From positions 124,001-188,000 of the forward strand of contig JACRLG010000023.1 in NCBI GenBank assembly GCA_016235345.1: a stretch of DNA of 64,000 nt, written 5' to 3'. This document shows, piece after piece, positions 4,813 to 27,857 of this stretch (position 1 is the stretch's first letter; each line of letters starts with the position of its first letter). Under the pieces are notes generated by a model. It had not been told where the DNA came from. It saw only the letters and a list, made by a program, of their open reading frames with translations, and did no database searches. This stretch comes from Deltaproteobacteria bacterium (GTDB taxonomy: Bacteria > Desulfobacterota > Desulfobacteria > Desulfobacterales > Desulfatibacillaceae). The translations under genes and the position numbers were made by a program.

Positions 4813-7221
<2,409 letters not shown>

Positions 7222-7251
7222 TTATAGCCCGATCATGGGAGGTATTTTGAT

Positions 7252-8442
7252 ATGAGAGAAGCTTACATCGTATCGGCAGTGAGAACTCCGGGCTGCCGGA
7301 GGGCCAAGGGCGCTTTCGCCGACACCCGTCCCGAAGGACTTCTGTCCTTCATCCTGGGCGCGGCAGTTGACAAGGTTCCCGGTCTTTCAAAGGGCGACGT
7401 TGAAGACATCATGTGCGGCTGCTCCTTTCCCGAAGCCGAGCAGGGCCTGAACGTGGGCCGCATCTGCGGCCAGATCGGCGGATTTCCCCAGGCGGTTTCG
7501 GGAGCCACCGTCAACCGTTTCTGCGCCTCCGGCCTCGAAGCCGTTGTCCAGGCCAGCATGAGGGTCATGTGCGGTTTTTCCGATGTCACCATCGGCGCTG
7601 GCCTTGAGTCCATGAGCTACGTGCCCATGGGCGGAAATATGCCCAGGCCCTGCCCCGAATACACCGAAGCCCACCCGGAGATGTACTGCTCCATGGGCAT
7701 CACCGCCGAAAACGTGGCCAAGCGCTACAACGTAAGCCGCGAAGCCCAGGACGAGTTCGCCTACAATTCCCACATGAAGGCTGCGGCGGCCCGTGACAAC
7801 GGCAAGTTCATCGAAGTCGTGCCCACCCCGGCCATCAAGTACGTTGAGCAGCCGGACGGCACCTTCAAGAAGGAAACCTTCATCCAGGCGGTGGACGACG
7901 GCATCCGCGCCGAAACCACCATGGAAGGCCTTGCCAAGCTGCGCCCGGTTTTCGCGGCAGTGGGCTCGGTGACCGCAGGCAACTCCTCCCAGACCACCGA
8001 CGGCTCCGCCGCCTGCGTCATCATGAGCGGCGACAAGATGAAGGCTCTGGGAATCAAGCCCCTTGGAAAACTCGTGTGCTACGCCACCGTGGGCTGCAAC
8101 CCGGACGAAATGGGCGTGGGTCCGGCTCTTGCCATTCCCAAGGTGCTGGCCAAGGCCGGAGTGAAAATCGAGGACGTGGGCCTTTTCGAGATCAACGAGG
8201 CTTTCGCCTCCCAGGCCCTGTACTGCATGAGGGAACTTGGCATAGACAAGCCCGGCATGATCGAGCGCGTGAACATCCACGGCGGAGCCATCGCCCTGGG
8301 TCACCCGCTTGGCTGCACGGGAGCCAAGCTCGCCGCCACGCTTCTGAACAACATGAAGACCAAGGGCGTGAAGTACGGCGTGGAGTCCATGTGCATCGGC
8401 GGCGGCATGGGCGCGGCTGCCCTGTTCGAGCTGTGCGACTAA
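7252..8442 (+). CDS. fadA: Acetyl-CoA acyltransferase (3-ketoacyl-CoA thiolase)
   Basis: 396 residues, the usual thiolase length. The nucleophilic Cys is in NRFCASGLEAV (C91). The second conserved block NIHGGAIALGHPLG provides His351, and CIGGGMGAA provides the acid/base Cys381. The enzyme cleaves 3-ketoacyl-CoA with CoA to give acetyl-CoA and a shortened acyl-CoA, the last step of the spiral served by the upstream FadN-like protein. GGGAGG sits 9 bases before ATG. A strong stem-loop terminator follows the stop, so the operon probably ends here. Exact chain-length preference cannot be read from sequence. Confidence 0.94.
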   Translation: MREAYIVSAVRTPGCRRAKGAFADTRPEGLLSFILGAAVDKVPGLSKGDVEDIMCGCSFPEAEQGLNVGRICGQIGGFPQAVSGATVNRFCASGLEAVVQASMRVMCGFSDVTIGAGLESMSYVPMGGNMPRPCPEYTEAHPEMYCSMGITAENVAKRYNVSREAQDEFAYNSHMKAAAARDNGKFIEVVPTPAIKYVEQPDGTFKKETFIQAVDDGIRAETTMEGLAKLRPVFAAVGSVTAGNSSQTTDGSAACVIMSGDKMKALGIKPLGKLVCYATVGCNPDEMGVGPALAIPKVLAKAGVKIEDVGLFEINEAFASQALYCMRELGIDKPGMIERVNIHGGAIALGHPLGCTGAKLAATLLNNMKTKGVKYGVESMCIGGGMGAAALFELCD

Positions 8443-8608: not shown

Positions 8609-8686
8609 ACGCGATTCCGTTTAATGAAGCCGGAAAGGCGCGGCAAAAGGCATTTCAGGCGGAATCAAACACCTTCGGACGCACTC

Positions 8687-11335
8687 ATGGGCAACCTTTT
8701 CCGCAGACGATTCATTCCCGTCCTGGCAGTGGCCTTAAGCCTTGTCCCGGCCCTTTTGCTCATGGCCTTCATAATCCCTCCCATGACAGCGGCCCTCTCC
8801 GGTTGGCTGAGTGAAAATTCGGGGCCCGCGTGGCGGCTGGAATATCTGGAAATCGCTCCGTCCGGAAATTCGACCTTCTCCTTTTACAACAACAAGCTCG
8901 CGCTTTCGTTCAAAAAGAGCGACAGGGTGATTCTGTGCACCGCCACCGCCGCTTTTGACCGGGGCAAGTTGCTGGTTTACAGCCGCCCGGAAAACGGTCC
9001 GGAAACAAGGTTGCCGGTTTCGTTCGAGCCCCGCGCCGGACTGGCAGGTGCGCGGCCTTCGCAGGTCTTCCGCTTCGCCGTTTCGCAAGGCGTCTCTTAT
9101 TCGTTTCAGCAGGACATCCGCGAAGACGCGAAACCAGCCGAAGAAGAGGCGGGCGGCGGCGCAACCCTGGACTCGGTCATCAAAAAACTCATAGCCCTTT
9201 CCAAAAACGACGAGGCCGGATACGACCTTTTCGCGTTCAGGCTTTCCGGGGCAGGGGGGCCGAAGAGGGGAGCCCTGGTCCGTTTCACGGCTTCGGGAAA
9301 GCCGGGCTCCCTTTCCGGGTCAAATCCCTTTCTGGAGTTTCCGGCAAAATACCCGTTTTTGCTGCCCGAATCGGCCAGGGCCGGGGAAAGGGCCGAGACC
9401 CTTCAACTGACCGGGCCAGGTTACAAGCCCCAGGCGATCAAGATTCCCGGCAGGTTCCACATTCCCCTGGATTTCATTTCAGAGCCTTTCGCCGGTTTTG
9501 TCCTGGCCCGCAAGAGCGAGAGCGGGGCGTACAGCGCCGTGAACGAATCTGCGGCCAGGGTGCGGGTGGCCCGGAACCTGGCCGCTTCATCAGCCCGCCC
9601 GACATCCTTCTTTTACCCGGTTTTCTCCGATCCCCAGGGGGTTTACGGTTTTCACGCGCCCTTTACGTGGGTGGATTATTTTTCCGGGGCAGGCGACCGC
9701 AGCCCTTGGGGGCAAGCGACCGCGCCGGTGGAATTTCTTTCTGCGGGCGAAAGCGGCTTAACCTTCCATCCCGAAAAGGACGCGCTGTTCGTGGCCGGAT
9801 TGGGCTTCACCCTGAGAGAAGCCGTTTTCGCGCCCTTGGCCGGGTTCATCACGTCGGCCTTCGCCATGCTGTTTACGGGTTTTTGCGCGGCCTTCTGCCT
9901 GGTCTACCTCTTTTTTCCCTTTTTCACGGTGAGGTTTTCAAAGGGCAACACCGCCTCGTCCATTTATTCCCTGACAGCTTCCGGGCTTACCGTGTTCATG
10001 GTCACGGGGCTGACGTTTCTGGGGCTTTTCCAGCTTCTGTACCTCAATCTCGATTCCGCAGCCTACCCGGAGCTGAACAAGGTCCATTTTTTTCTGGACT
10101 GCTCCCAGGGGGTGTTTCGGATAACGGCCCTTTCGATGGCGCTTTTCCTTTTCATGGCCGTGCTGAAGTATTTCAGGCCGAGCCGCAACTTCCTTTTCGG
10201 GTGGTTTTTCGACGAGGCCCGGCACGCCCGGAAGCTCTTTTTCGCCACCCTGATTTCCTTCGCTCTTTCGGTGGGGGTTTTCGCGGTCAAGCCTGGCCGC
10301 AGCATCATCCTCCTATGTTCCAGCACCCTTCTTCTGCTCTTTCCCCTGGCCTTCACCTCCTACCTCACCTATTTCAGGCTGAGGGTCAAAAGACGCCTGT
10401 CCCTGGGAGGGGTGGCGGTGTTTTCGGGCCTGATTCCCCTGGTGGGCTTCGCGGTTCCCCTGGCCCTTTACGACGAGTTCGGCCCCATACTCATCTACTC
10501 GCTCTTTCTTTTCCTGGCCTGGCCCGCCGTGGGTTTTTTCACCGACAAGAACCGGCTGCTGCCCCTTCAGGACGAGCAAAGGGGCAGGTTCACCAGGGCT
10601 GTCCAGGTTTTTTTCGTGGCCGCGTGTACCCTTGTGGCACCTATTGCCTGGTTCGTGGTGGAATACCCGCCCCTGGCGGCCCTTCTCTTCATGCCCATAG
10701 CCTTTGCCCTGGTCAACCGGACACTTTCGAAATTCGGATGGACCTTTTCCCCCAACATGGCCCAGACCCTGTTCATAATCTGGCTGGGAATAGGGGCCAC
10801 AACGAGCCTTCTTTGCTTTTACCAGAAGGATTTCGAGCTTCCGGGCATGGACATGTTTTACAGCCGCATGGACAAGATGAACGTACCGGCCTTGAGGGAC
10901 GACGCGGACATCCCCCACAGCCTGATATACGAGCCGGGGACCCGCCTTGGAAGCCTCGCCCGGCGAATCCACACGGATTTTGCCATGAGCCTTACCCGGA
11001 GCCTCTACAAGGATGTTTTCACCGCTGTTTCGGGCACCCTTCTGGCCGGGAGCCTCCTTTTCGCCTATCTGGCCGTCTTGTTTCTCTCACTGTGGCAGAT
11101 GCAGGCCTACACCCTCCACCAGTCCATAAAGCGGCTGAACGAGCCCCTGTTCCGTTTCGTCTGCTTCGCCTTTCTGGGGGTGTTCGGGCTTTATTCGTTC
11201 CTGTCCACGGGCTGTTACCTGCCCCTTACCGGCGTGCCCTTTCCCCTGGTCTCCGACGGCGATTCATACCGCTTCTTCACCCTCACCCTGTTGTGGATTT
11301 CCCTTCTAAGCCCCTGGCAGGAAAGAACCTACTGA
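8687..11335 (+). CDS. Divergent SEDS-family glycosyltransferase (RodA/FtsW-like) with large extracytoplasmic domain
   Basis: 882 residues from the ATG at 8687; an in-frame ATG at 8624 would add 21 basic residues but leaves almost no leader. Segment 1-40 is a basic start and one membrane span. Residues about 45-380 form a large domain with few hydrophobic stretches, predicted outside the membrane. From about 385 to the end there are roughly ten hydrophobic segments. Two SEDS signatures remain near the C-terminus: HTDF (about 762-765), where RodA/FtsW have 'HTDFIF' with the catalytic Asp, and PLTGVPFPLVS (about 846-856), matching 'PvtGiPLPfvS'. SEDS proteins polymerise lipid II into glycan strands with a class B PBP partner, and a PBP gene begins one base after this stop. 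Canonical RodA/FtsW are about 370-420 residues, so the size and N-terminal domain are unusual. Family call from motifs; role inferred. Confidence 0.75.
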   Translation: MGNLFRRRFIPVLAVALSLVPALLLMAFIIPPMTAALSGWLSENSGPAWRLEYLEIAPSGNSTFSFYNNKLALSFKKSDRVILCTATAAFDRGKLLVYSRPENGPETRLPVSFEPRAGLAGARPSQVFRFAVSQGVSYSFQQDIREDAKPAEEEAGGGATLDSVIKKLIALSKNDEAGYDLFAFRLSGAGGPKRGALVRFTASGKPGSLSGSNPFLEFPAKYPFLLPESARAGERAETLQLTGPGYKPQAIKIPGRFHIPLDFISEPFAGFVLARKSESGAYSAVNESAARVRVARNLAASSARPTSFFYPVFSDPQGVYGFHAPFTWVDYFSGAGDRSPWGQATAPVEFLSAGESGLTFHPEKDALFVAGLGFTLREAVFAPLAGFITSAFAMLFTGFCAAFCLVYLFFPFFTVRFSKGNTASSIYSLTASGLTVFMVTGLTFLGLFQLLYLNLDSAAYPELNKVHFFLDCSQGVFRITALSMALFLFMAVLKYFRPSRNFLFGWFFDEARHARKLFFATLISFALSVGVFAVKPGRSIILLCSSTLLLLFPLAFTSYLTYFRLRVKRRLSLGGVAVFSGLIPLVGFAVPLALYDEFGPILIYSLFLFLAWPAVGFFTDKNRLLPLQDEQRGRFTRAVQVFFVAACTLVAPIAWFVVEYPPLAALLFMPIAFALVNRTLSKFGWTFSPNMAQTLFIIWLGIGATTSLLCFYQKDFELPGMDMFYSRMDKMNVPALRDDADIPHSLIYEPGTRLGSLARRIHTDFAMSLTRSLYKDVFTAVSGTLLAGSLLFAYLAVLFLSLWQMQAYTLHQSIKRLNEPLFRFVCFAFLGVFGLYSFLSTGCYLPLTGVPFPLVSDGDSYRFFTLTLLWISLLSPWQERTY

Positions 11336-11336
11336 C

Positions 11337-14300
11337 ATGCCCTCGAAAAAGCGTGCCATACCATTTCGTCGGCGAGTCCTGGCCCTTTTGCTGGTGGCCG
11401 GTTTTTCCGCCAGCTTTTTCGCCGTAACGAGGCTGGCCCGCCACGACGCGGAGCTTTCGGACGAGCGCAGGGATTTTTCCCATTCCATGTTTTTGCTCTA
11501 CGAGCAGGAGAAGGGGCTTTCGATATCCAACCGGCTTGGGCTTGGGGATTTTTCCTTTTCCCGCGCCCAAAGGCCTGCCCACGTCCCCTTCGAGCGCTAC
11601 GCAATGATAGAGAAGAAGGATTCGGGTTGGAAACTCCTGGTGAGCGACCTTGCCAACGCCTACGCGGTTCAGAATCCCGAAAAGCCCGAAACCGCATCCT
11701 TCAGGGTGATAGCCGACGGCGAACACGAGGCCGCGCCCGGAATTTACGTTTTCAACAACAACCTGGTGGGGCTTGGCCGGGAGGAAGGCGGCGGGTCCAT
11801 GTCGGCGAGCCGGCTGGGCTACCTGTTTTTCCTTGCGCCCGGTCAGAGCGTAACCCTTGGAAAGAGCCTCAAAAACCAGGCGGTCTTTCCCGTGGCGGAA
11901 CAGGCGAGAATTTTCGAGGGCGCTCCCACCGCCTTTCTTCCGGGCCGGTGGCTGGAACTAACCGCCGACAGGGACGGGACGATCCGGGTGAGCTTTCTTG
12001 ACCGGCCAACCGTCACCAAGGGCGGGAAGGCGTTCCCGGCGAGGCTTCAGCCCCGCCTCTGGCCCCTCAGCCTGGTGGCGGGGGAGGAGGACCCTCTTCT
12101 GCCAGCGGATAAAACCGCTGTGGCCTGGGTTCAGGCAGTGACGGCCACCGAGGGCGGCGGGTCGGGGGAGATGAAGGGAAGTGCCTTCAGGCTTAAGGCA
12201 AGCGGCGGCGAAATCCGGGAAATCCCCCTCTTCGCCCTTAAAACCGGAAAGGGGCCGGACAACACCACTGCCCTGTGGGTGATTTTCAATTTCCGGCAAA
12301 ACCCGCTTTTCGGGGCCTTAACGGCGGGAAACGATCCTCCTGTGGAGCCCCTTTCATCCACCTGGAACAACCCCATGCGCCAGGTGACGGCCCTTCCTGG
12401 AAAGCCCTGCGTTCTCGCCCCCATGTCCAGCCAGTTTCGGCGTTTCGGCGCAAGGCAGAGGGTGAGCTGGGAAAAATACGACAGCATGATCGACACCGCA
12501 GATCACGGAACGGTGTCCCTCGATCAGGCTGACGGCGAGGCGGGCAGCCGGAACAGGGCCTATGCCGAATCCGTGATTTTTCATCCCGAAGCCGGGGTCA
12601 CCATAAGAAACAACCTTCTTTTCGATTCCAGGGAGACCGTGGCCGCGCAAACCCGCGCGCCGAAGGTGGGGGACCTGGCGGCGGCCAACCGGAAAAGCTA
12701 CCCCTACCTCACCGACCCCGGACGGGACCGGAAAATATTTCTGGACTGGCCAGCCCGCAACAAGAGGAAGCAGCCGGTCTATCTCATTTTCCATCCGGGC
12801 CCCGGGGTCTTTGCCGGGGACTCGGCGCGCCTGCCGGCGCCATCCAGGTCCAACCAGGGCGGGTCGTACCTGAAGGACTGGGACGCCCTGGGGGTGTGGT
12901 CCCGTTACGCGGTTTGCGTAAACGGAGAGGGCCGGGTGACCCCCCCGCCCTCGGACAAGCGCCTTGCCGGGCTTGCGGTCGGGCCTGATTCATGGGCCTT
13001 CCTGGGCCCGCAGTCGGCTGTTGTGGCGGTTTCCCTCGCCAGCGCCAAAGGAGGCCTTACCGGCGAAAGATCGGGGCTCGCCATAAAAAGGGCGTGGGGA
13101 GACGCGCCGGTTCTCATCAACGGCGAGGACCTTACGGGCGAATCCAGGGAACTCCGGTACGGCGACGTGGTTTCCTACGGCGAGGGCTCCTGGACCCTGG
13201 CATCCAACTTCGGCCTGTGCCTGTTCTCGGAAAAAAAGGCCCTTCCCAAAAACGACACCACAAGCCAGATGGTCCGCTGGACCTTTTCCTCGCCGGTGGA
13301 CAACGGGGAAATATTAAATTCCATAACCGGCATTCTTGGAGACGAAATCTTCGATCACTCGTCGGGCCGCCACTCCAGGAGGCGCACCCTGTATCCGGGT
13401 CTGGCCGAGGCCCCGGACGTGCGGTCCAGGCTCTCGCAGGGCGAAAACGTGCGGCTCACGCTCCAGTCCGACCTCATGGAAATAGTCACCTCGGTCACCC
13501 GAAGGCACCTTGCCATGATGGACGCGGATTATCCCTATCCGCCGTGCACCTCCGTTAAAGGCAGAAGGCCCTGCGCCACGCCCTCCACTCACGGCGGGGC
13601 GGTGGTGATCTTAAACCGCGAGGGAAAGATAAGGGCCTGCCTCAGCCTTCCCACCTTCACCAGGGAGAGTCTGAAAGGGGCCATTTTCGACAAGACCGCC
13701 GACGACACCCGCGACTTCACCTTCAGAAACCGGGCGCTTCAGCTGACGAAAAACGATTACCCAGGCTCCATCTTCAAGACCGTAACAGCCATGTGCTGGC
13801 TTTTAAGCCCCCCCTGGCGCTTCGACACCGTTCCGCCGGGGCCGCTGTCCTTTGACATCACGGGTCCTGAGCGCTTCTTCGCGGTGAAATCCGGGGACAT
13901 CCCCATCCCGCCCTACACCTGCACCAACCACCTGGTGAGCTACTCCTGGGGCGCTTTCTGGGGCTACGAGTTCGGCCCCAAGGGAATAGCCTGCGTGGGC
14001 AACCACGGAAAAAGAAGGGACCGGGTGGAATTTCTGTCGGAAATCCTCTACAAGTCCTGCAATCAGGGGGCCATGAGGCTATACACCCAGTACGCAGCCC
14101 CTGGAACCCTTCCGGGCTCCTGGATCGAGGTCTACAAGGCCCTGGGTTTCCGGGTCCTGGGCGGGTCGGGAACCCAGTACGGCCCGGCCCTTCGCTTCGC
14201 CCGCGACCTTGACGGCGAAATAACGCGAATTCTGCGCCTGGACGCGGGCCTCGTGGACGTGGCGCACCTGGAGCAGTATCCCGCCTCCCTGTGCAAGATG

Positions 14301-14891
14301 ACCTTCGGCCAGATCGTGGAGGCATCCCTCATGCACCTTGCCCTCATGGGGGTTCTCTACTCCAACGGCGGCCAGATGTACCTGCCCACCTTCAGGGAGG
14401 ACGCGGTGGAGCGCATGGAATCAGACCCCCAAAGCCCCCTTGACCCGGAGATTTTCGCCGCTGCGGCAAGGCAGGTGGGGGACTCGCTGATCCTGGGCTC
14501 CCAGAGGGTGGCCGAGCCTGGGCGCGGCATTTTCATGGGCACCTCCCAGCCCTCATTCGTGGAAATCCAGGGCAGCGAGGATTTGGGATACCCGGTTTTC
14601 GCCGGAAAGACCTCCACAGCCGAGGTGGTCCAGGGAGCGCCCGGAAGCGAGGTCCAGAAGGCCCACACCCGCTGGATGGGCTGGCAGGCGGGCAGCCTTG
14701 CAAAGAACGGCGCGGACTGGAAGTTCAACCGCAGCCGTGAAAAGCTGGTCATGGCCATAAGCGTCGAGAATTCCAACAATCCCAAGGCCCCCACCCACGC
14801 CAAGTTTCTCGCGGCCAAGCTGGCCTACACCATCGCCTCCTTTTTCGGAGACTGCGGAAACCAGGTGGAGAAAACATGCGCCTCAAAATAG
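11337..14891 (+). CDS. Large penicillin-binding protein (transpeptidase) with FHA-like segment
   Basis: 1184 residues, nearly twice the size of typical class B PBPs. One N-terminal membrane anchor (about 9-28) precedes a long extracytoplasmic region. The transpeptidase motifs are in order: SxxK as PGSIFK (S811, K814), SxN as SCN (S907-N909), and the third motif as GKTSTA (K1091-T-S), with Ser where KTG enzymes have Gly. Residues about 589-620 (LINGEDLTGESRELRYGDVV) read like an FHA-type beta-sandwich strand pair, an odd feature outside the cytoplasm. The domain between about 30 and 580 is unrecognised. It would cross-link peptidoglycan, with the adjacent SEDS protein as glycan polymerase. The gene starts one base after that stop and overlaps the next gene by 16 bases, indicating tight translational coupling. 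Confidence 0.82.
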   Translation: MPSKKRAIPFRRRVLALLLVAGFSASFFAVTRLARHDAELSDERRDFSHSMFLLYEQEKGLSISNRLGLGDFSFSRAQRPAHVPFERYAMIEKKDSGWKLLVSDLANAYAVQNPEKPETASFRVIADGEHEAAPGIYVFNNNLVGLGREEGGGSMSASRLGYLFFLAPGQSVTLGKSLKNQAVFPVAEQARIFEGAPTAFLPGRWLELTADRDGTIRVSFLDRPTVTKGGKAFPARLQPRLWPLSLVAGEEDPLLPADKTAVAWVQAVTATEGGGSGEMKGSAFRLKASGGEIREIPLFALKTGKGPDNTTALWVIFNFRQNPLFGALTAGNDPPVEPLSSTWNNPMRQVTALPGKPCVLAPMSSQFRRFGARQRVSWEKYDSMIDTADHGTVSLDQADGEAGSRNRAYAESVIFHPEAGVTIRNNLLFDSRETVAAQTRAPKVGDLAAANRKSYPYLTDPGRDRKIFLDWPARNKRKQPVYLIFHPGPGVFAGDSARLPAPSRSNQGGSYLKDWDALGVWSRYAVCVNGEGRVTPPPSDKRLAGLAVGPDSWAFLGPQSAVVAVSLASAKGGLTGERSGLAIKRAWGDAPVLINGEDLTGESRELRYGDVVSYGEGSWTLASNFGLCLFSEKKALPKNDTTSQMVRWTFSSPVDNGEILNSITGILGDEIFDHSSGRHSRRRTLYPGLAEAPDVRSRLSQGENVRLTLQSDLMEIVTSVTRRHLAMMDADYPYPPCTSVKGRRPCATPSTHGGAVVILNREGKIRACLSLPTFTRESLKGAIFDKTADDTRDFTFRNRALQLTKNDYPGSIFKTVTAMCWLLSPPWRFDTVPPGPLSFDITGPERFFAVKSGDIPIPPYTCTNHLVSYSWGAFWGYEFGPKGIACVGNHGKRRDRVEFLSEILYKSCNQGAMRLYTQYAAPGTLPGSWIEVYKALGFRVLGGSGTQYGPALRFARDLDGEITRILRLDAGLVDVAHLEQYPASLCKMTFGQIVEASLMHLALMGVLYSNGGQMYLPTFREDAVERMESDPQSPLDPEIFAAAARQVGDSLILGSQRVAEPGRGIFMGTSQPSFVEIQGSEDLGYPVFAGKTSTAEVVQGAPGSEVQKAHTRWMGWQAGSLAKNGADWKFNRSREKLVMAISVENSNNPKAPTHAKFLAAKLAYTIASFFGDCGNQVEKTCASK

Positions 14892-15673
14892 CCATCGCCC
14901 TTCTGCTGGCCTTTGCGGCCTCCTTCCCGGCGTCCTTCGCGGCCTCCAAAAAGGTGAGCCTGCCGGGGCCTTCGGCCAAGGATTGGCCATGCAGAGAGAA
15001 TTTCAGCATCGTCCAGGGCGAAGACAGCGACATCACGGCCTTTGCGAAAAAATACAAGGTGCCGCCCCTCATCCTTCTGGCCTGGAACCCGGTTCTGGCC
15101 GAAGAGGGAAGGGTGAGGCGCTACCGGGAAAAACGGGTAAGGGGAAGGCTTGCAAGGCAGCCCGTGAACATTCTCATCTGCCGCGAGCCTTTTCTGAGAA
15201 CCCCGCTGGGAACGTATGAAAGCCCCTACAAGCTGGTGCTTTCGCGCTTCTCCGGAATCTACACCTACCCCTGGGCCGAGCTTGGCTCCCGCTGGCGGGC
15301 CGACGTGCCTCCGGGAAAGCGCGTGCGCATGGCCCCGGAAACCTGCCTCACCTTTGCACGCAAACCCCACAAGATGCGCCTGAGGTTGAGCCTTCCGGCC
15401 CCGGCCCGCACGGAAAAAGCCTTAAATGACGTGGCCAGGACCTTCGGGGTATCCCAGGCCGTCATCAACGCCCTTAACGCCAAGGCCCTACAGAGGGGCT
15501 ATCTCACCCGCGAGGACGTGGTCTTTCTCCCGTATCCCAGGATAATCGGGGTGGAGGAGGAGGAAGAGGATGAACCGGCGGCGCAAGGGGAGAAAAAGGA
15601 GGAAGAAGCCGGGCCGGCTGAATCCATAGCGCCTCCGGGCACAATAGAACCCAGCGGTGAAGAGACGGATTAG
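14876..15673 (+). CDS. Secreted LysM-like protein
   Basis: 265 residues; the start overlaps the end of the PBP gene by 16 bases. A signal peptide (MRLKIAIALLLAFAASFPASFA) is followed by a LysM-like module (about 42-100: FSIVQGEDSDITAFAKKYKV, then LLAWNP). A second, weaker LysM-like module lies at about 170-225 (LNDVARTFGVSQAVINALN). The C-terminal 40 residues are a Glu-rich, probably disordered tail. LysM modules bind the N-acetylglucosamine of peptidoglycan, which fits the cell-wall synthesis genes just upstream. The stop codon directly abuts a copy of the nested-palindrome repeat, so the transcript probably carries that structure in its 3' region. A LysM assignment is likely but both modules are divergent. 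Confidence 0.72.
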   Translation: MRLKIAIALLLAFAASFPASFAASKKVSLPGPSAKDWPCRENFSIVQGEDSDITAFAKKYKVPPLILLAWNPVLAEEGRVRRYREKRVRGRLARQPVNILICREPFLRTPLGTYESPYKLVLSRFSGIYTYPWAELGSRWRADVPPGKRVRMAPETCLTFARKPHKMRLRLSLPAPARTEKALNDVARTFGVSQAVINALNAKALQRGYLTREDVVFLPYPRIIGVEEEEEDEPAAQGEKKEEEAGPAESIAPPGTIEPSGEETD

Positions 15674-19834: not shown

Positions 19835-19958
19835 CAGGGGAGCTGAGGGCGATGATATGCAAGGAAGGCGAGCGGCGCGGGGAGGAATAGTACACAAGGT
19901 ACATGACGCCCCGCCCGCCCCCTGCCTGACACAGCAGATCGCGCCCTCAGTTCCCCTG
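19835..19958 (-). repeat. Nested-palindrome repeat, copy B
   Basis: Outer arms CAGGGGAGCTGAGGGCG (19835-19851) and CGCCCTCAGTTCCCCTG (19942-19958) pair at 16 of 17 positions. The core is GTAC-ACAAG-GTAC (19890-19902), flanked by GATATGCAAGGAAGG and CTGACACAGCAGATCGCG. The right arm contains the last codons and the stop of the activator gene at 19947. On the minus strand it reads TGTGTCA first, the same sense as that gene. Confidence 0.85.
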
Positions 19959-20738
19959 TTTGCGGAGGGCTATGACGGCCGCGCCTAGTGCCCCCATGAA
20001 CTGGGGGTCCATGCCAAGGTTCACGATGTCAACCCTAAGGACCTTTTCCAGGGCCTTCACCAGCCCCTTGTTCTTGGAGCAGCCGCCGGTTACCGTCACC
20101 TTGGGGCGGATTCCCACGCGCCGGGCTAACGTAAAGACGCGCTTGGCCACCGAAAGCTGGACGCCCGCGGCTATGTCTGCTGGCGGATGGCGCTTGTAGA
20201 GGAGGCTGACCAGTTCCGATTCGGCGAAGACGGTGCACTGGCTGGTGACGGGAACCACCTTCTTGGCCTTCAAGCTGAGCTCCGAGAACTGGTCCAGGGT
20301 AACGTCGAAGGTGCGCACCACGGCCTCGTAGAACCGGCCCGTTCCGGCGGCGCACTTGTCGTTCATGGCGAATTCCAGCACGCTTCCGTCGTCGTTCAAG
20401 GCTATGGCCTTAACGTCCTGGCCGCCGATGTCCACTATGGTGCGCACTCCTGGGTCCATGTAATGCGCGCCTACGGCGTGGCAGGTGATTTCCGAGACGT
20501 TCTCGTTGGCGAAGGGCACCTCGTTTCTGCCGTAGCCCGTGCCCACGAGGTAGGATATATCCCGGACGTCCAGGCCCTCCACCTGGCCCGCCGCCATTTC
20601 AAGCACTTCCCGGCCCGTTTCGATGGGGTCGATCTTGCTTCTTATGAGGGCGCTAGCAACCACCTTGCCCGATGCGTTCAGAATCACGGCCTTGCCGGTG
20701 GTGGAGCCTAAATCGCAACCTGCAAAATATTTCGGCAT
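19947..20738 (-). CDS. 2-hydroxyacyl-CoA dehydratase activator-type ATPase (BadF/BadG/HgdC family)
   Basis: 263 residues from the ATG at 20738, preceded by AGGTG; a longer frame from 20753 lacks a good site. It is an ASKHA-fold ATPase: phosphate-binding GCDLGSTTGK (7-16), second phosphate loop IVDIGGQDVK (101-110), adenosine motif TVTGGCSKN. Cys129 (NDKCAAGTG) and Cys168 (SQCTVF) are the ligands that bridge one [4Fe-4S] cluster between two subunits in HgdC. Such proteins use ATP hydrolysis to push a low-potential electron into a PF06050-type reductase or dehydratase, here the two subunits encoded upstream. A single activator gene suggests a homodimer (HgdC type) rather than the BcrA/BcrD heterodimer. 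Its last codons lie within a repeat arm. Confidence 0.9.
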   Translation of the reverse strand: MPKYFAGCDLGSTTGKAVILNASGKVVASALIRSKIDPIETGREVLEMAAGQVEGLDVRDISYLVGTGYGRNEVPFANENVSEITCHAVGAHYMDPGVRTIVDIGGQDVKAIALNDDGSVLEFAMNDKCAAGTGRFYEAVVRTFDVTLDQFSELSLKAKKVVPVTSQCTVFAESELVSLLYKRHPPADIAAGVQLSVAKRVFTLARRVGIRPKVTVTGGCSKNKGLVKALEKVLRVDIVNLGMDPQFMGALGAAVIALRKQGN

Positions 20739-20761
20739 AGTACACCTTTCCATAATTATTG

Positions 20762-20880
20762 GCCTGTCTAAAAAACGCGAATTGCTGTGTCATGCTTCAA
20801 AGCCAATTCCGCCACGTACTTTTAGTACGCTTGCTCATTGGCTTTTCGCACTCCTTGCACTTCATCGTTTTTATCCAGGC
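20762..20880 (+). repeat. Nested-palindrome repeat, copy D
   Basis: Outer arms GCCTGTCTAAAAAACG and CGTTTTTATCCAGGC, inner arms AAAGCCAAT/ATTGGCTTT (perfect), core GTAC-TTTTA-GTAC (20816-20828). It is the only copy reading opposite to its neighbouring genes, and it sits 24 bases before the activator start. A second match to the outer arm, GACAGGC at 20898-20904, could also pair with GCCTGTC at 20762. Confidence 0.85.
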
Positions 20881-21004
20881 TTCGTATCCAGGCGTTCGAC
20901 AGGCTGATTATGGCGGGGCCTGGTTCCGGTAAAGCCCCGTGTTTTTATGTCGGTCCGGTTTATCCCAACTGGGAAAAATTTGCAAAAACAGCCTTCGGGT
21001 CGGC

Positions 21005-22426
21005 CTATTTGCTTGGCTCGGCCTTGATGACGGTTTCCATGAAGCCTTCGGCCTGCTTGCGGATTTCGGCGGGGGAGACCACCCGCGTGTCCGAAAGGTC
21101 GTACTGAATGATGAGAAGCGGGATTCCGCGCTCCCTGCACTTTTCCCGGAACATGCCATTCAGGGCCATGGTGTTCTTGCAGCCCATGTGCCCGGCCATC
21201 CAGATCATGTCCAGGTTGAAGCGTTCGTAGAGATCGAAGAGGTCCGTAAAGAAGTTGGTCTGGGGGCCCCTGGTGTGCCGGGCCATGGGGCCCTGCATGA
21301 TGATTCGGGAAAGGCCCTCCATTATGGTCTGGGGGCTTTTCGTATCGATGTAGGGGTGGCGGTTGTACGAGATCATGTCCATGAGGGTGACGACCCCGTA
21401 GCGCTGCTCGGCCCAGGCGATGAGCTCCGGGTAGACCAGGGTGGGCGGGTTCCACAGGGCGGCCCGGAAGCGCTCGTTGTGAAGCGCGCCGCCCTCTGCC
21501 CGTATGCGTTTGGCCATGTCCACCATGGTTTTCATGTATTCGGTGCAGGCGGGCCTCCCCGGCATGGCCACCATGAAGATCATGTGCCCCAGGTACAGGG
21601 CCTCGCCCGCCAGGGGCGCGGGTTTTTCCCGGATGAGGTCCCATAGCTCCATCTGGTATTCCACCGAGCGGTTGCGTTCGTCGCAGATTTCCTTCAGGCG
21701 GTCCCAGTCCATGCGGCCCGGAGTGTTGGCCTCCAGCCACTTTACGGCCCGGAAAAGCTCGTCGGCGAAGTACTTCGTGCTTCGCTCGTCGTAGAAGTTG
21801 TAGGGAACGTCCAGGCGGAAGGTGGGGACGTTGAGTTCCCGCTCAAGGACGGTGTAGCAGCTCATGCCGCCGTCGCAGGGCATGTTGGACGTGAGAATGG
21901 CGGCGGGCCTCGGCATTTCTCCCTTCAAGGCAAGGCCCATGGTGGCCTTGGGAAGGCTGCATATGTCGGGAGGGGTCCCGGCGTTTTCCGAGACGTCTAT
22001 GTAGCGCTCGGCGAAATCCGAGCGGATGAGCGGCCCCATGATGCCCAAAAGCTCGGCCATCCAGGGATTCAAGCCCATTGCGTAGATTATTTCGGGCGGA
22101 ACCAGGTCCTCGTGCATGACGGTGTATTCGGGCCGGGTGAAGACCCCCTCAAGGGTCTCGGTTATGGCCTTCACCACCCTTGAAAGGGCCATTGCGCTCG
22201 CCTGGCGGTAGAGGCCCTCGCGTCCCTTGGTGGACATGTCGAAGAGGGTGCCGCAGTCCAGAAGAACCTTGAGCCAGGGCTTGGACCTCAAATGCCCCAG
22301 CATGGTGAGCGGCCCAACCCTCAATCCCATGTTCGCTATGTGGCCGTATGCCTCAGCCTTATAATATAGCGTGCGGGCCTGCTCCATGGGGCTGACCCTT
22401 GCGCCCTTGAGATCGTATATGCTCAT
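21005..22426 (-). CDS. 2-hydroxyacyl-CoA dehydratase / benzoyl-CoA reductase family subunit (larger)
   Basis: 473 residues from the ATG at 22426, preceded by AGGAAAAGG; frames extending to 22519 run into the repeat. It fits the PF06050 fold: a first half with MPCDGGMSCYTVLEREL then VPTFRLDVPYN, where the family places cluster-ligand Cys and the 'ldvP' strand. A second half follows with GHMGCKNTMAL then RGIPLLIIQYDLSD and a final amphipathic helix. The family includes dehydratase, BcrB/C-type benzoyl-CoA reductase and double-cubane cluster subunits that receive electrons from the ATP-driven activator. The smaller partner is transcribed just before it and the activator just after. The substrate cannot be told from sequence. 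Confidence 0.85.
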   Translation of the reverse strand: MSIYDLKGARVSPMEQARTLYYKAEAYGHIANMGLRVGPLTMLGHLRSKPWLKVLLDCGTLFDMSTKGREGLYRQASAMALSRVVKAITETLEGVFTRPEYTVMHEDLVPPEIIYAMGLNPWMAELLGIMGPLIRSDFAERYIDVSENAGTPPDICSLPKATMGLALKGEMPRPAAILTSNMPCDGGMSCYTVLERELNVPTFRLDVPYNFYDERSTKYFADELFRAVKWLEANTPGRMDWDRLKEICDERNRSVEYQMELWDLIREKPAPLAGEALYLGHMIFMVAMPGRPACTEYMKTMVDMAKRIRAEGGALHNERFRAALWNPPTLVYPELIAWAEQRYGVVTLMDMISYNRHPYIDTKSPQTIMEGLSRIIMQGPMARHTRGPQTNFFTDLFDLYERFNLDMIWMAGHMGCKNTMALNGMFREKCRERGIPLLIIQYDLSDTRVVSPAEIRKQAEGFMETVIKAEPSK

Positions 22427-22489
22427 GACCTTTTCCTGTATCCCGCTTCGGGTTTCATCCCCAATTAAAATTCTTTTAAGGCCAGCGCA

Positions 22490-22617
22490 GACAGGCTGAT
22501 CAAAAACGATGAAATGCAAGGAAGAGGAAAGCGGGCGGGGAGGAATAGTACTTGCCGTACATGACGACCCGCCCGCTTTGCTCTGACACAGCAGTTCGCG
22601 TTTTTGGACAGCCTGTC
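22490..22617 (-). repeat. Nested-palindrome repeat, copy C
   Basis: Outer arms GACAGGCTGATCAAAAACG and CGTTTTTGGACAGCCTGTC pair at 17 of 19 positions. The inner arms AAAGCGGGCGGG/CCCGCCCGCTTT are perfect over 12 bases. The core is GTAC-TTGCC-GTAC (22548-22560). The right arm runs into the stop codon of the gene ending at 22616. On the minus strand it has the same sense as that gene. Confidence 0.88.
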
Positions 22618-23749
22618 ACTTGCCCATGCTTTCCATAAAGGCCTGGACTCTGGTCTGCAGTTGCCCCTCGCTTCCCAGTGAATATTCCCGCTCCAGGCGC
22701 AGAACCGGTATTTTGGCCTTTCTGAGGGCGTTGATCATGGGGCTCGCCTCAACGCCCCAGGTGTCGCAGAACTTCATGGTTTCCAGCACCACGCCGTCAA
22801 CCCGGAACTCTTTTGCCGCCGCGATGATCTCCTCGACCCTGGTGTCGAACTCCTCCATCATGCGGGGGCAGCTTATGTTGGAGAGGCTGCGCCGGGCAAG
22901 GACCGTGAGGGGGTCGCCTTCGTCGTCTATGGGGGCAAGGGCCGGGATGGAGCCTGTACAGGTGCGGTCCCCAACCACGAGCGCCCCGGTGGACTCGATC
23001 ACCCTTATGTAGTGCGGATCGTCGCAATGGCTTCCGGCCATGAGGAGGCGCGCCCGGTAGTCGTCTATGCCGGGGGCGTTCCGGGCTGTTTCGTAGAAAA
23101 CCCGCAGATGGGGGATGATGAGGTCCGTGGGCGACGAGGAGGCTGCGGCGATCAGGGCCTGGAACATGGCCCCGGTGAGCGGCGGGTGGTCGCGCTTCCT
23201 CAAATCCGAAATGTCGCGCATGAGGGCGAGATATTCGTTGTGGGCGTCTATGGCGCGGGACAGGGCCGCGTCGTCGGTGACCACGTTGAACTTGTCGGCG
23301 AGCTTTTCCGCCAGCATGGAAAGCTCTTCGCGCATCCACTGGACAGCCGCCTCGCTCCTCTTGTGGGGGACGTCCAGGATATGAATGAAATCCGGGTGTT
23401 CCAGGTAGTCCAGGTTGTCGTACAGGCGGCGCATGTGATCGCAGCTTGCGGTGAAGACCCAGCCGTTGATGCTGGAAAAGGTGCCTTCCAGCACGAACTC
23501 CAGGATGCTTCTTACCGTGGAGCATATGACGTTTGAAAGGTAGGTGTCGGCCATGGGCGTGCCGGAAACACCGGGGGCGCGCACCCTTACGCCGAAAAGG
23601 CCCTCCACGTTCAGCAAGGGTTCGGGAACGAATGAGCAGGTATAGGCTATGGCCTTGCGGTCGGCCTCCTGGGCCTTGTCCACCAGGGGGCTTATGGGCG
23701 AGTCGACGATGTCGTTGATCAGGCGTGGAAGGCTCACGGGCTGCTTCAT
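22616..23749 (-). CDS. 2-hydroxyacyl-CoA dehydratase / benzoyl-CoA reductase family subunit (smaller)
   Basis: 377 residues, the size of BcrC/HgdB-type subunits. Canonical PF06050 blocks are visible: TASCDHMRRLYDNL (C103) then ILDVPHKRSEAAVQWMREEL, and near the C-terminus KFCDTWG then KIPVLRLEREY and QLQTRVQAFME. Additional Cys are at C38, C76 and GDRTCTG. The SCD and KFCD cysteines are the positions that bind the [4Fe-4S] or double-cubane cluster in the family. GAGGAAA precedes ATG. It is third in a five-gene minus-strand operon after the ACS-like and CooC-like genes and would pair with the larger subunit downstream. Alternatives are a benzoyl-CoA-reductase-like enzyme or a double-cubane cluster protein. 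Confidence 0.87.
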   Translation of the reverse strand: MKQPVSLPRLINDIVDSPISPLVDKAQEADRKAIAYTCSFVPEPLLNVEGLFGVRVRAPGVSGTPMADTYLSNVICSTVRSILEFVLEGTFSSINGWVFTASCDHMRRLYDNLDYLEHPDFIHILDVPHKRSEAAVQWMREELSMLAEKLADKFNVVTDDAALSRAIDAHNEYLALMRDISDLRKRDHPPLTGAMFQALIAAASSSPTDLIIPHLRVFYETARNAPGIDDYRARLLMAGSHCDDPHYIRVIESTGALVVGDRTCTGSIPALAPIDDEGDPLTVLARRSLSNISCPRMMEEFDTRVEEIIAAAKEFRVDGVVLETMKFCDTWGVEASPMINALRKAKIPVLRLEREYSLGSEGQLQTRVQAFMESMGK

Positions 23750-26897: not shown

Positions 26898-27857
26898 ATG
26901 GCGGCGTCCCTCGATCTGTCGGTGGTGGTCCCGGTTTTCAACGAAGCCGACAACATTGACGGCCTTTACGGCCAGATCAAGCCGGTTCTGGAAAGCCTTG
27001 GGAAAACCAGCGAGATCATATTCATAAACGACGGCTCCACTGACGGATCGGGCCCGCGCCTGGACGCCCTGTGCGCGGACCCCTGCGTAAAGGTGATCCA
27101 CTTCCGCCGCAACTTCGGCCAGTCCGCCGCCATGATGGCCGGTTTCGACCACGCCAAGGGCGAGGTGGTCATTTCCCTGGACGCCGACCTCCAGAACGAC
27201 CCGGCGGACATCCCCCTGATCCTGGAAAAGCTCGACCAGGGCTACACCGTGGTTTCGGGCTGGCGCAAGGACCGCAAGGACAGGACCCTCACCCGCAAGG
27301 TTCCCAGTTTCGTGGCCAACAGGCTGATTTCGGCGCTTTCGGGGGTGCCCCTGCACGACTACGGCTGCACCCTGAAGGGCTACCGCCGCCAGTTCATCGA
27401 AAACCTGGGCATTTACGGCGAGATGCACCGTTTCCTGCCGGTTTACGCCAAGTGGCAGGGGGCGAAAATCGCGGAAATTCCGGTTTCCCACAGGCCCCGC
27501 GTGGCGGGAAAGTCCAAGTACGGCCTGGAGCGCACCTTCAAGGTTCTTTTGGACCTCCTTCTCATCAAGTTCTACGACGGCTACGCCCAAAAGCCCATGT
27601 ACGCCTTTGGTTTCGTGGGCTTTTCCAGCTTTCTGGTCTCCCTGGCCTGTTTTTGCGCCATGATCTATTTCAAGTTCTGGGGCGGCAAGAGCTTCATCCA
27701 GACGCCCCTGCCGCTTCTGGCTGTCCAGTTTTTCCTCATCGGCATAATCTGCTTTCTTCTTGGAATCACCACCGACCTTGTAATGCGCACCTATTTCGAG
27801 TCCCAGAACCGGCGTCCCTACATGGTGAGCCATACCAGAAACATGGAAGGCCCATAG
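26898..27857 (+). CDS. Family 2 glycosyltransferase, dolichol-phosphate-mannose-synthase type (GtrB/ArnC-like)
   Basis: 319 residues. The GT-A fold begins with LSVVVPVFNEADNI (about 7-20). INDGSTDGS and the metal-binding DAD (95-97 in SLDADLQNDP) follow. After the catalytic domain come two membrane helices (about 237-260 and 273-295), the arrangement of GtrB/ArnC enzymes. Such enzymes transfer a sugar from a nucleotide sugar to undecaprenyl phosphate at the inner membrane, supplying lipid-linked sugars to integral-membrane glycosyltransferases. A TMTC-like membrane glycosyltransferase of exactly that kind is encoded five genes later, so the two probably act in sequence. asnB follows with a 3-base gap. 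Confidence 0.88.
   Translation: MAASLDLSVVVPVFNEADNIDGLYGQIKPVLESLGKTSEIIFINDGSTDGSGPRLDALCADPCVKVIHFRRNFGQSAAMMAGFDHAKGEVVISLDADLQNDPADIPLILEKLDQGYTVVSGWRKDRKDRTLTRKVPSFVANRLISALSGVPLHDYGCTLKGYRRQFIENLGIYGEMHRFLPVYAKWQGAKIAEIPVSHRPRVAGKSKYGLERTFKVLLDLLLIKFYDGYAQKPMYAFGFVGFSSFLVSLACFCAMIYFKFWGGKSFIQTPLPLLAVQFFLIGIICFLLGITTDLVMRTYFESQNRRPYMVSHTRNMEGP

Follow-up and report, generated by a model that had tools for sequence, protein, structure and literature searches.

A divergent SEDS-like protein and a class B PBP homologue encoded by adjacent genes in a member of the Desulfobacterales

The stretch of DNA analyzed in this study (hereafter, the window) comprises 64,000 nucleotides of contig JACRLG010000023.1 (positions 124,001 to 188,000) from a Deltaproteobacteria bacterium of the order Desulfobacterales. 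It contains a gene for a polytopic SEDS-like protein, directly followed by a gene for a class B PBP (bPBP)-like protein and by three further genes of the same operon (Table 1). The original prediction concerned positions 10900-11335, which are the 3' end of a 903-aa ORF (8624-11335, plus strand), and did not mention the PBP partner, the operon, or the two canonical SEDS genes found elsewhere in the genome. Translation probably starts at the ATG at position 8687, giving a protein of 882 aa, since in the sole close relative, a congener (genome G001, Deltaproteobacteria MAG WY2.bin34; contig JAKAGN010000056, locus L006), the homologous protein begins at the equivalent codon. Residues are numbered throughout from the start of the longest ORF (position 8624), so that Asp785 corresponds to Asp764 as counted from ATG 8687.

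Hydropathy places one TM segment of the SEDS-like protein at residues 33-51, followed by ~360 residues without a clear TM segment, a next TM segment at 413-431, and ~13 TM segments in all after the N-terminal domain, a count in which the last segment (884-900) was set by hand and a weak hydropathy peak at 388-406 was left uncounted. Most of the loops placed in the cytoplasm are rich in K and R and contain few acidic residues (K+R count per loop). With 14 TM segments, the positive-inside topology has the N-terminus in the cytoplasm, the N-terminal domain and the loops bearing HTDF and PLTGVPFPLVS outside, and the C-terminus inside. The parity of this arrangement (~14 TM) matches that of SEDS proteins, with both motifs out and the C-terminus in, while the assignment of TM1-TM7 is tentative. 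The N-terminal extracytoplasmic domain, originally put at ~340 residues, is real by hydropathy and the positive-inside rule and occupies ~360 residues between the TM segment at 33-51 and that beginning at 413. As for the suggestion that it has no counterpart among SEDS proteins, the domain had no match in Pfam, NCBIfam, or PDB sequences.

The PBP-like gene starts 1 nt downstream of the SEDS-like stop codon, and its product has a bitopic layout with an N-terminal TM segment. The best NCBIfam match was TIGR03423 (PBP2/MrdA; E 8e-10), PBP2/MrdA being the type of bPBP that partners RodA; PF00905 matched with E 6e-5, and hhalign comparison against the genome's own two SEDS-partner bPBPs gave E 5e-12 and a probability of 97.5. 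The three transpeptidase motifs align with SxxK/SxN/KTG of canonical bPBPs, and the SIFK motif contains Ser811. These comparisons show the partner to be a class B PBP homologue, with an intact catalytic triad and an N-terminal region as unusual as that of the SEDS-like protein. No pedestal/dimerization domain (PF03717) was found in that region with Pfam; instead, it consists of ~650 residues without a known family. A possible FHA-like segment was indicated by a weak Pfam match to Yop-YscD_cpl (FHA clan; residues 573-621, E 0.024, below cut-off) in the congener's homologue only. Comparison by hhalign among the N-terminal domain of the SEDS-like protein, the N-terminal region of the PBP-like protein, and the products of operon genes 3-5 revealed no internal homology.

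Table 1. Coordinates of the SEDS-like/PBP-like pair, its motifs, and the remaining operon genes in the window.
Feature	Position	Strand	Remarks
SEDS-like gene	8687..11335 (longest ORF from 8624)	+	882/903 aa; ~14 predicted TM segments
Extracytoplasmic N-terminal domain, ORF residues 52-412	8777..9859	+	hydropathy and positive-inside rule
ECL4-equivalent long extracytoplasmic loop, residues 734-804	10823..11035	+	carries SRMDKMN (10862-10882) and HTDF
HTDF, residues 783-786	10970..10981	+	Asp785 codon 10976-10978
PLTGVPFPLVSDG, residues 867-879	11222..11260	+	equivalent of ECL5 P-x-x-G-x-P-x-P-x-x-S-Y-G-G; PLTGVPFPLVS at 11222-11254
Class B PBP-like gene, 1184 aa	11337..14891	+	TM 14-32, ~650-residue unusual region, C-terminal transpeptidase
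Possible FHA-like segment (weak)	13056..13202	+	Pfam match in the congener's homologue only
Transpeptidase motifs SIFK, SCN, KTST	13767..14618	+	13767-13778, 14055-14063, 14607-14618; aligned with SxxK/SxN/KTG of canonical bPBPs
Operon gene 3, secreted 265 aa protein	14876..15673	+	no known family; LysM-like by eye only
Operon gene 4, 477 aa	15962..17395	+	without predicted TM or known family
Operon gene 5, 443 aa	17392..18723	+	hydrophobic segment at the N-terminus, TM at the C-terminus; no known family; congener's contig ends earlier

Of the two canonical SEDS genes elsewhere in the genome, one adjoins a bPBP gene and the other lies ~6 kb from one; because the genome already has these two, the SEDS-like/PBP-like pair is a third system. 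The pair is rare among the genomes sampled. It is present in the congener, with identities of 61% (SEDS-like) and 66% (PBP-like), where it is followed by homologues of operon genes 3 (60% identity) and 4 (58%, cut by the contig end) and preceded by different upstream genes. A distant pair (33% and 30% identity) occurs in a genome from another family of the same order (G075, locus L047), which carries canonical SEDS too. The contig of this distant relative begins inside the SEDS-like gene, the rest of which was not found on another contig of G075; its two genes overlap by 4 nt, and its transpeptidase motifs are SIQK/SCN/KTGT. Behind this pair, an AAA-ATPase-like ORF identified by eye (L047:67-1659) replaces the three operon genes, so that only the SEDS-like/PBP-like core is common to the distant locus. 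Adjacency of the two genes is thus conserved in three genomes. No further pairs were detected in ~390 genomes of the order and class (two samples containing largely the same genomes) or in 395 genomes of the phylum, and no relatives were detected in viral contigs or plasmids; for bacteria beyond these samples, the scan of genome contigs reaches close relatives only. Three additional loci from the order search (L015-L017) were rejected as chance matches (cobalamin-biosynthesis-like, heterodisulfide-reductase-like, and antisense ORFs).

Comparison of the window with the congener shows purifying selection on both genes, most pronounced around the proposed active sites. In the SEDS-like protein, constraint is highest from ECL4 to the C-terminus (78% identity, dN 0.16, dS 0.84, dN/dS ~0.2), compared to 65% identity in the rest of the membrane part and 50% in the N-terminal extracytoplasmic domain (dN 0.46, dS 1.56, dN/dS ~0.3). 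For the PBP transpeptidase domain, the corresponding values are 73% identity, dN 0.21, and dS 0.80 (dN/dS ~0.26).

Three lines of evidence support homology of the C-terminal part of the SEDS-like protein to RodA/FtsW: profile comparison checked against shuffled controls, the predicted topology, and the bPBP partner gene. In profile-profile comparison (hhalign) against a reference profile of 31 canonical SEDS proteins from the same order, the HTDF and ECL5 blocks align in the same order as in canonical RodA/FtsW. The membrane part scored 41.9, whereas the maxima of three sets of shuffled controls (150, 150, and 100 sequences; 400 total) were 32.8, 33.8, and 25.0 and a reversed control scored 16.0; pairwise E values were 1.2e-4 for the whole protein, 8e-5 for the membrane part, and 1.9e-5 for a three-sequence tail. 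There is one significant local match, of ~130 residues, running from the HTDF loop through the ECL5 loop, and the ECL5 pattern appeared in none of 20,000 composition shuffles (0/20,000). The original observation that HTDF and PLTGVPFPLVS match RodA/FtsW motifs near the end of the protein is therefore borne out, including the proposed alignment around Asp764 (Asp785), where HTDF aligns with the profile of the 31 canonical proteins. Asp785 and its neighbors (H783-T-D785-F) are retained in both the congener and the distant relative; in SEDS proteins, this essential Asp belongs to the long extracytoplasmic loop that precedes TM8. It remains true that no Pfam or NCBIfam model, PF01098 included, reaches its threshold with the window protein and that no PDB sequence matches it; PF01098 gave sub-threshold scores at the equivalent place in both relatives (19 bits in the congener and ~16 bits in the distant one, against a cut-off of 26.4). 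The fold is unproven: an AlphaFold model of the full protein with one close relative reached a pLDDT of 34, and one restricted to the membrane part, for which canonical SEDS sequences were added (rows that would themselves bias the model), reached 38. Both models were unusable, since sequence depth was too low. An unrelated polytopic protein that merely happens to carry HTDF and a proline-rich loop would account for the lack of a family model above threshold and for an alignable part of only ~130 residues; given the shuffled and reversed controls, the topology, the occurrence of both blocks in three genomes, and the bPBP partner gene, such a coincidence is already disfavored and appears very improbable.

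The signature has been kept in part. All 31 canonical SEDS proteins carry R[WS] and QP[SA]E in ECL2, PD[LF]G in ECL3, HTDF, the ECL5 motif, and SYGG. The claim of a conserved SEDS catalytic signature stands for the ECL4 Asp and for P-x-x-G...P-x-x-S-x-G in ECL5 but does not extend to the ECL2 (RW...QPSE) and ECL3 (PDLG) motifs or to the GSGG/GKG part of ECL4, which are absent from both the window protein and its congener, or to SYGG, which is replaced by SDGD in the window protein and SSGE in the distant relative. Nor do the motifs stand at the expected spacing: the distance from the H of HTDF to the P of ECL5 is 84 residues in the window protein and 83 in the distant relative, compared to 70 in 31/31 canonical proteins. 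Arg748, in SRMDKMN, is a tentative candidate for the ECL4 Arg (YQxxR; FtsW R243, R246); it is kept in the congener, but the alignment is ambiguous and the distant sequence is truncated. Two other candidate equivalents were rejected: KRRLSLG, aligned by MAFFT with ECL2 RWISLG, lies in a loop that the topology puts in the cytoplasm, and VEYPPL, considered for PDLG, is not kept in the congener.

In E. coli FtsW, changes at W138 (W138A), Q147, P196, G199, Y379 (Y379A), and G381 abolish function, and G381D is dominant-negative; H295A and T296A are tolerated while D297A is not (PMC8765783). The window protein has therefore retained the catalytic Asp while losing several other residues that are essential in FtsW, and it may or may not still use lipid II. 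There are several potential explanations for this pattern. The protein could be a catalytically dead scaffold that polymerizes no glycan and serves to anchor and regulate either the partner transpeptidase or one of the canonical synthases, as might be expected from the natural Asp at the position of FtsW G381, where G381D is dominant-negative (PMC8765783), and from the loss of other critical residues. However, constraint on the protein is highest (78% identity, dN/dS ~0.2) in the part that holds the catalytic Asp and the ECL5 block, and both are present even in the distant relative, which would be unexpected for a dead active site, making a scaffold role quite improbable.

Alternatively, the protein may be a SEDS-derived glycosyltransferase with a changed substrate, which polymerizes or ligates another undecaprenyl-PP glycan whose product the PBP-like partner attaches or cross-links. 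O-antigen ligases, Wzy-type polymerases, and SEDS proteins belong to the same GT-C1 clan, and the features kept here include those found clan-wide, namely an extracytoplasmic Asp in a long near-C-terminal loop and, tentatively, an Arg earlier in that loop (PMC10920833), while the SEDS-specific ECL2, ECL3, and YGG residues are those that have been lost; the sequence distance from GT119/PF01098 also suggests an altered donor or acceptor. This explanation is nevertheless unlikely, as the operon pairs the protein with a transpeptidase whose triad is intact, known bPBPs all act on peptidoglycan stem peptides, and no glycan gene cluster directly adjoins the pair. It is also possible, if doubtful, that the proteins represent a separate SEDS-type branch, with accessory proteins and a giant class B PBP that co-evolved with it, and that this branch, having lost several residues thought to be essential for lipid II polymerization, produces a wall polymer that is different or under special regulation.

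The two genes probably encode a third, highly divergent pair of SEDS glycosyltransferase and class B PBP. Judging from the families involved, the SEDS-like protein of such a pair would polymerize undecaprenyl-pyrophosphate-linked muropeptide (lipid II) at the outer face of the inner membrane, with Asp785 in ECL4 as the putative acceptor-activating residue, and the PBP-like partner would cross-link the product via Ser811. The pedestal of the PBP contacts ECL4 in canonical pairs, where MreC or divisome activators control it (PMC8765783). As no pedestal was recognized here and both partners have large private domains, these domains probably carry the activating contact; the ~360-residue extra domain and the partner's ~650-residue N-terminal region may bind each other or the secreted protein of the operon, and could perform the scaffolding and activation done by MreC or FtsN/FtsQLB in canonical pairs. 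That the genome has this pair in addition to two canonical ones suggests a condition- or structure-specific wall, and the pair may be dedicated to a special wall structure or condition.

Compared to RodA-PBP2 (GT119/PF01098 with an MrdA-type bPBP), the window likewise pairs a polytopic protein carrying an HTDF loop and a P-x-x-G-x-P-x-P-x-x-S-x-G loop with a bitopic transpeptidase that matches the PBP2/MrdA model best. It differs in having a predicted ~14 rather than 10 TM segments, a ~360-residue extracytoplasmic N-terminal domain, and a motif spacing of 84 instead of 70, in missing the ECL2/ECL3 motifs and YGG, and in its PBP, which is almost twice as large as usual and has an unrelated N-terminal region. 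To our knowledge, accessory SEDS proteins of the SpoVE/SpoVD and Listeria kind retain the canonical SEDS architecture. Such accessory SEDS-bPBP pairs (SpoVE/SpoVD of sporulation; the extra non-canonical FtsW/RodA of Listeria, PMC6686043, PMC6624303) resemble the present one as additional polymerase pairs beside the housekeeping ones, but the SEDS-like protein here is not recognized by Pfam; Listeria Lmo0421 clusters apart, yet it has been described as an FtsW/RodA homologue. O-antigen ligases and inverting Wzy polymerases of the GT-C1 clan would share with the present protein the GT-CB fold class and a long near-C-terminal extracytoplasmic loop in which an Arg occurs together with a His or acidic residue (PMC10920833), whereas the SEDS-specific HTDF and ECL5 blocks and the bPBP partner set the present protein apart, and Pfam found no Wzy_C or O-ligase match in it.

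SEDS proteins vary very little in sequence: together with GT120, GT119 is the least diverse of the newly classified families that use sugar-diphospholipids (PMC10920833). If functional, a relative with only the Asp loop and the ECL5 loop, and with SDGD in place of SYGG, would reveal which parts of the active site are truly needed and would be directly comparable with the FtsW mutant data. In addition, a pair with large built-in extracytoplasmic domains would provide a test case for the activation of SEDS-bPBP complexes.

Directly upstream of the pair (4813-8442) lie genes for a fused 3-hydroxyacyl-CoA dehydrogenase/enoyl-CoA hydratase and then a thiolase, which appear unrelated to it, since the upstream genes differ in the congener. 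A glycosyltransferase gene ~8 kb downstream (26898-27857) has no evident link to the pair. The window also encodes a PilY1 beta-propeller protein of the type IV pilus tip-adhesin family (8-2626) and, on the minus strand (19947-23749), a BadF-type ATPase and two 2-hydroxyglutaryl-CoA dehydratase D-component genes.
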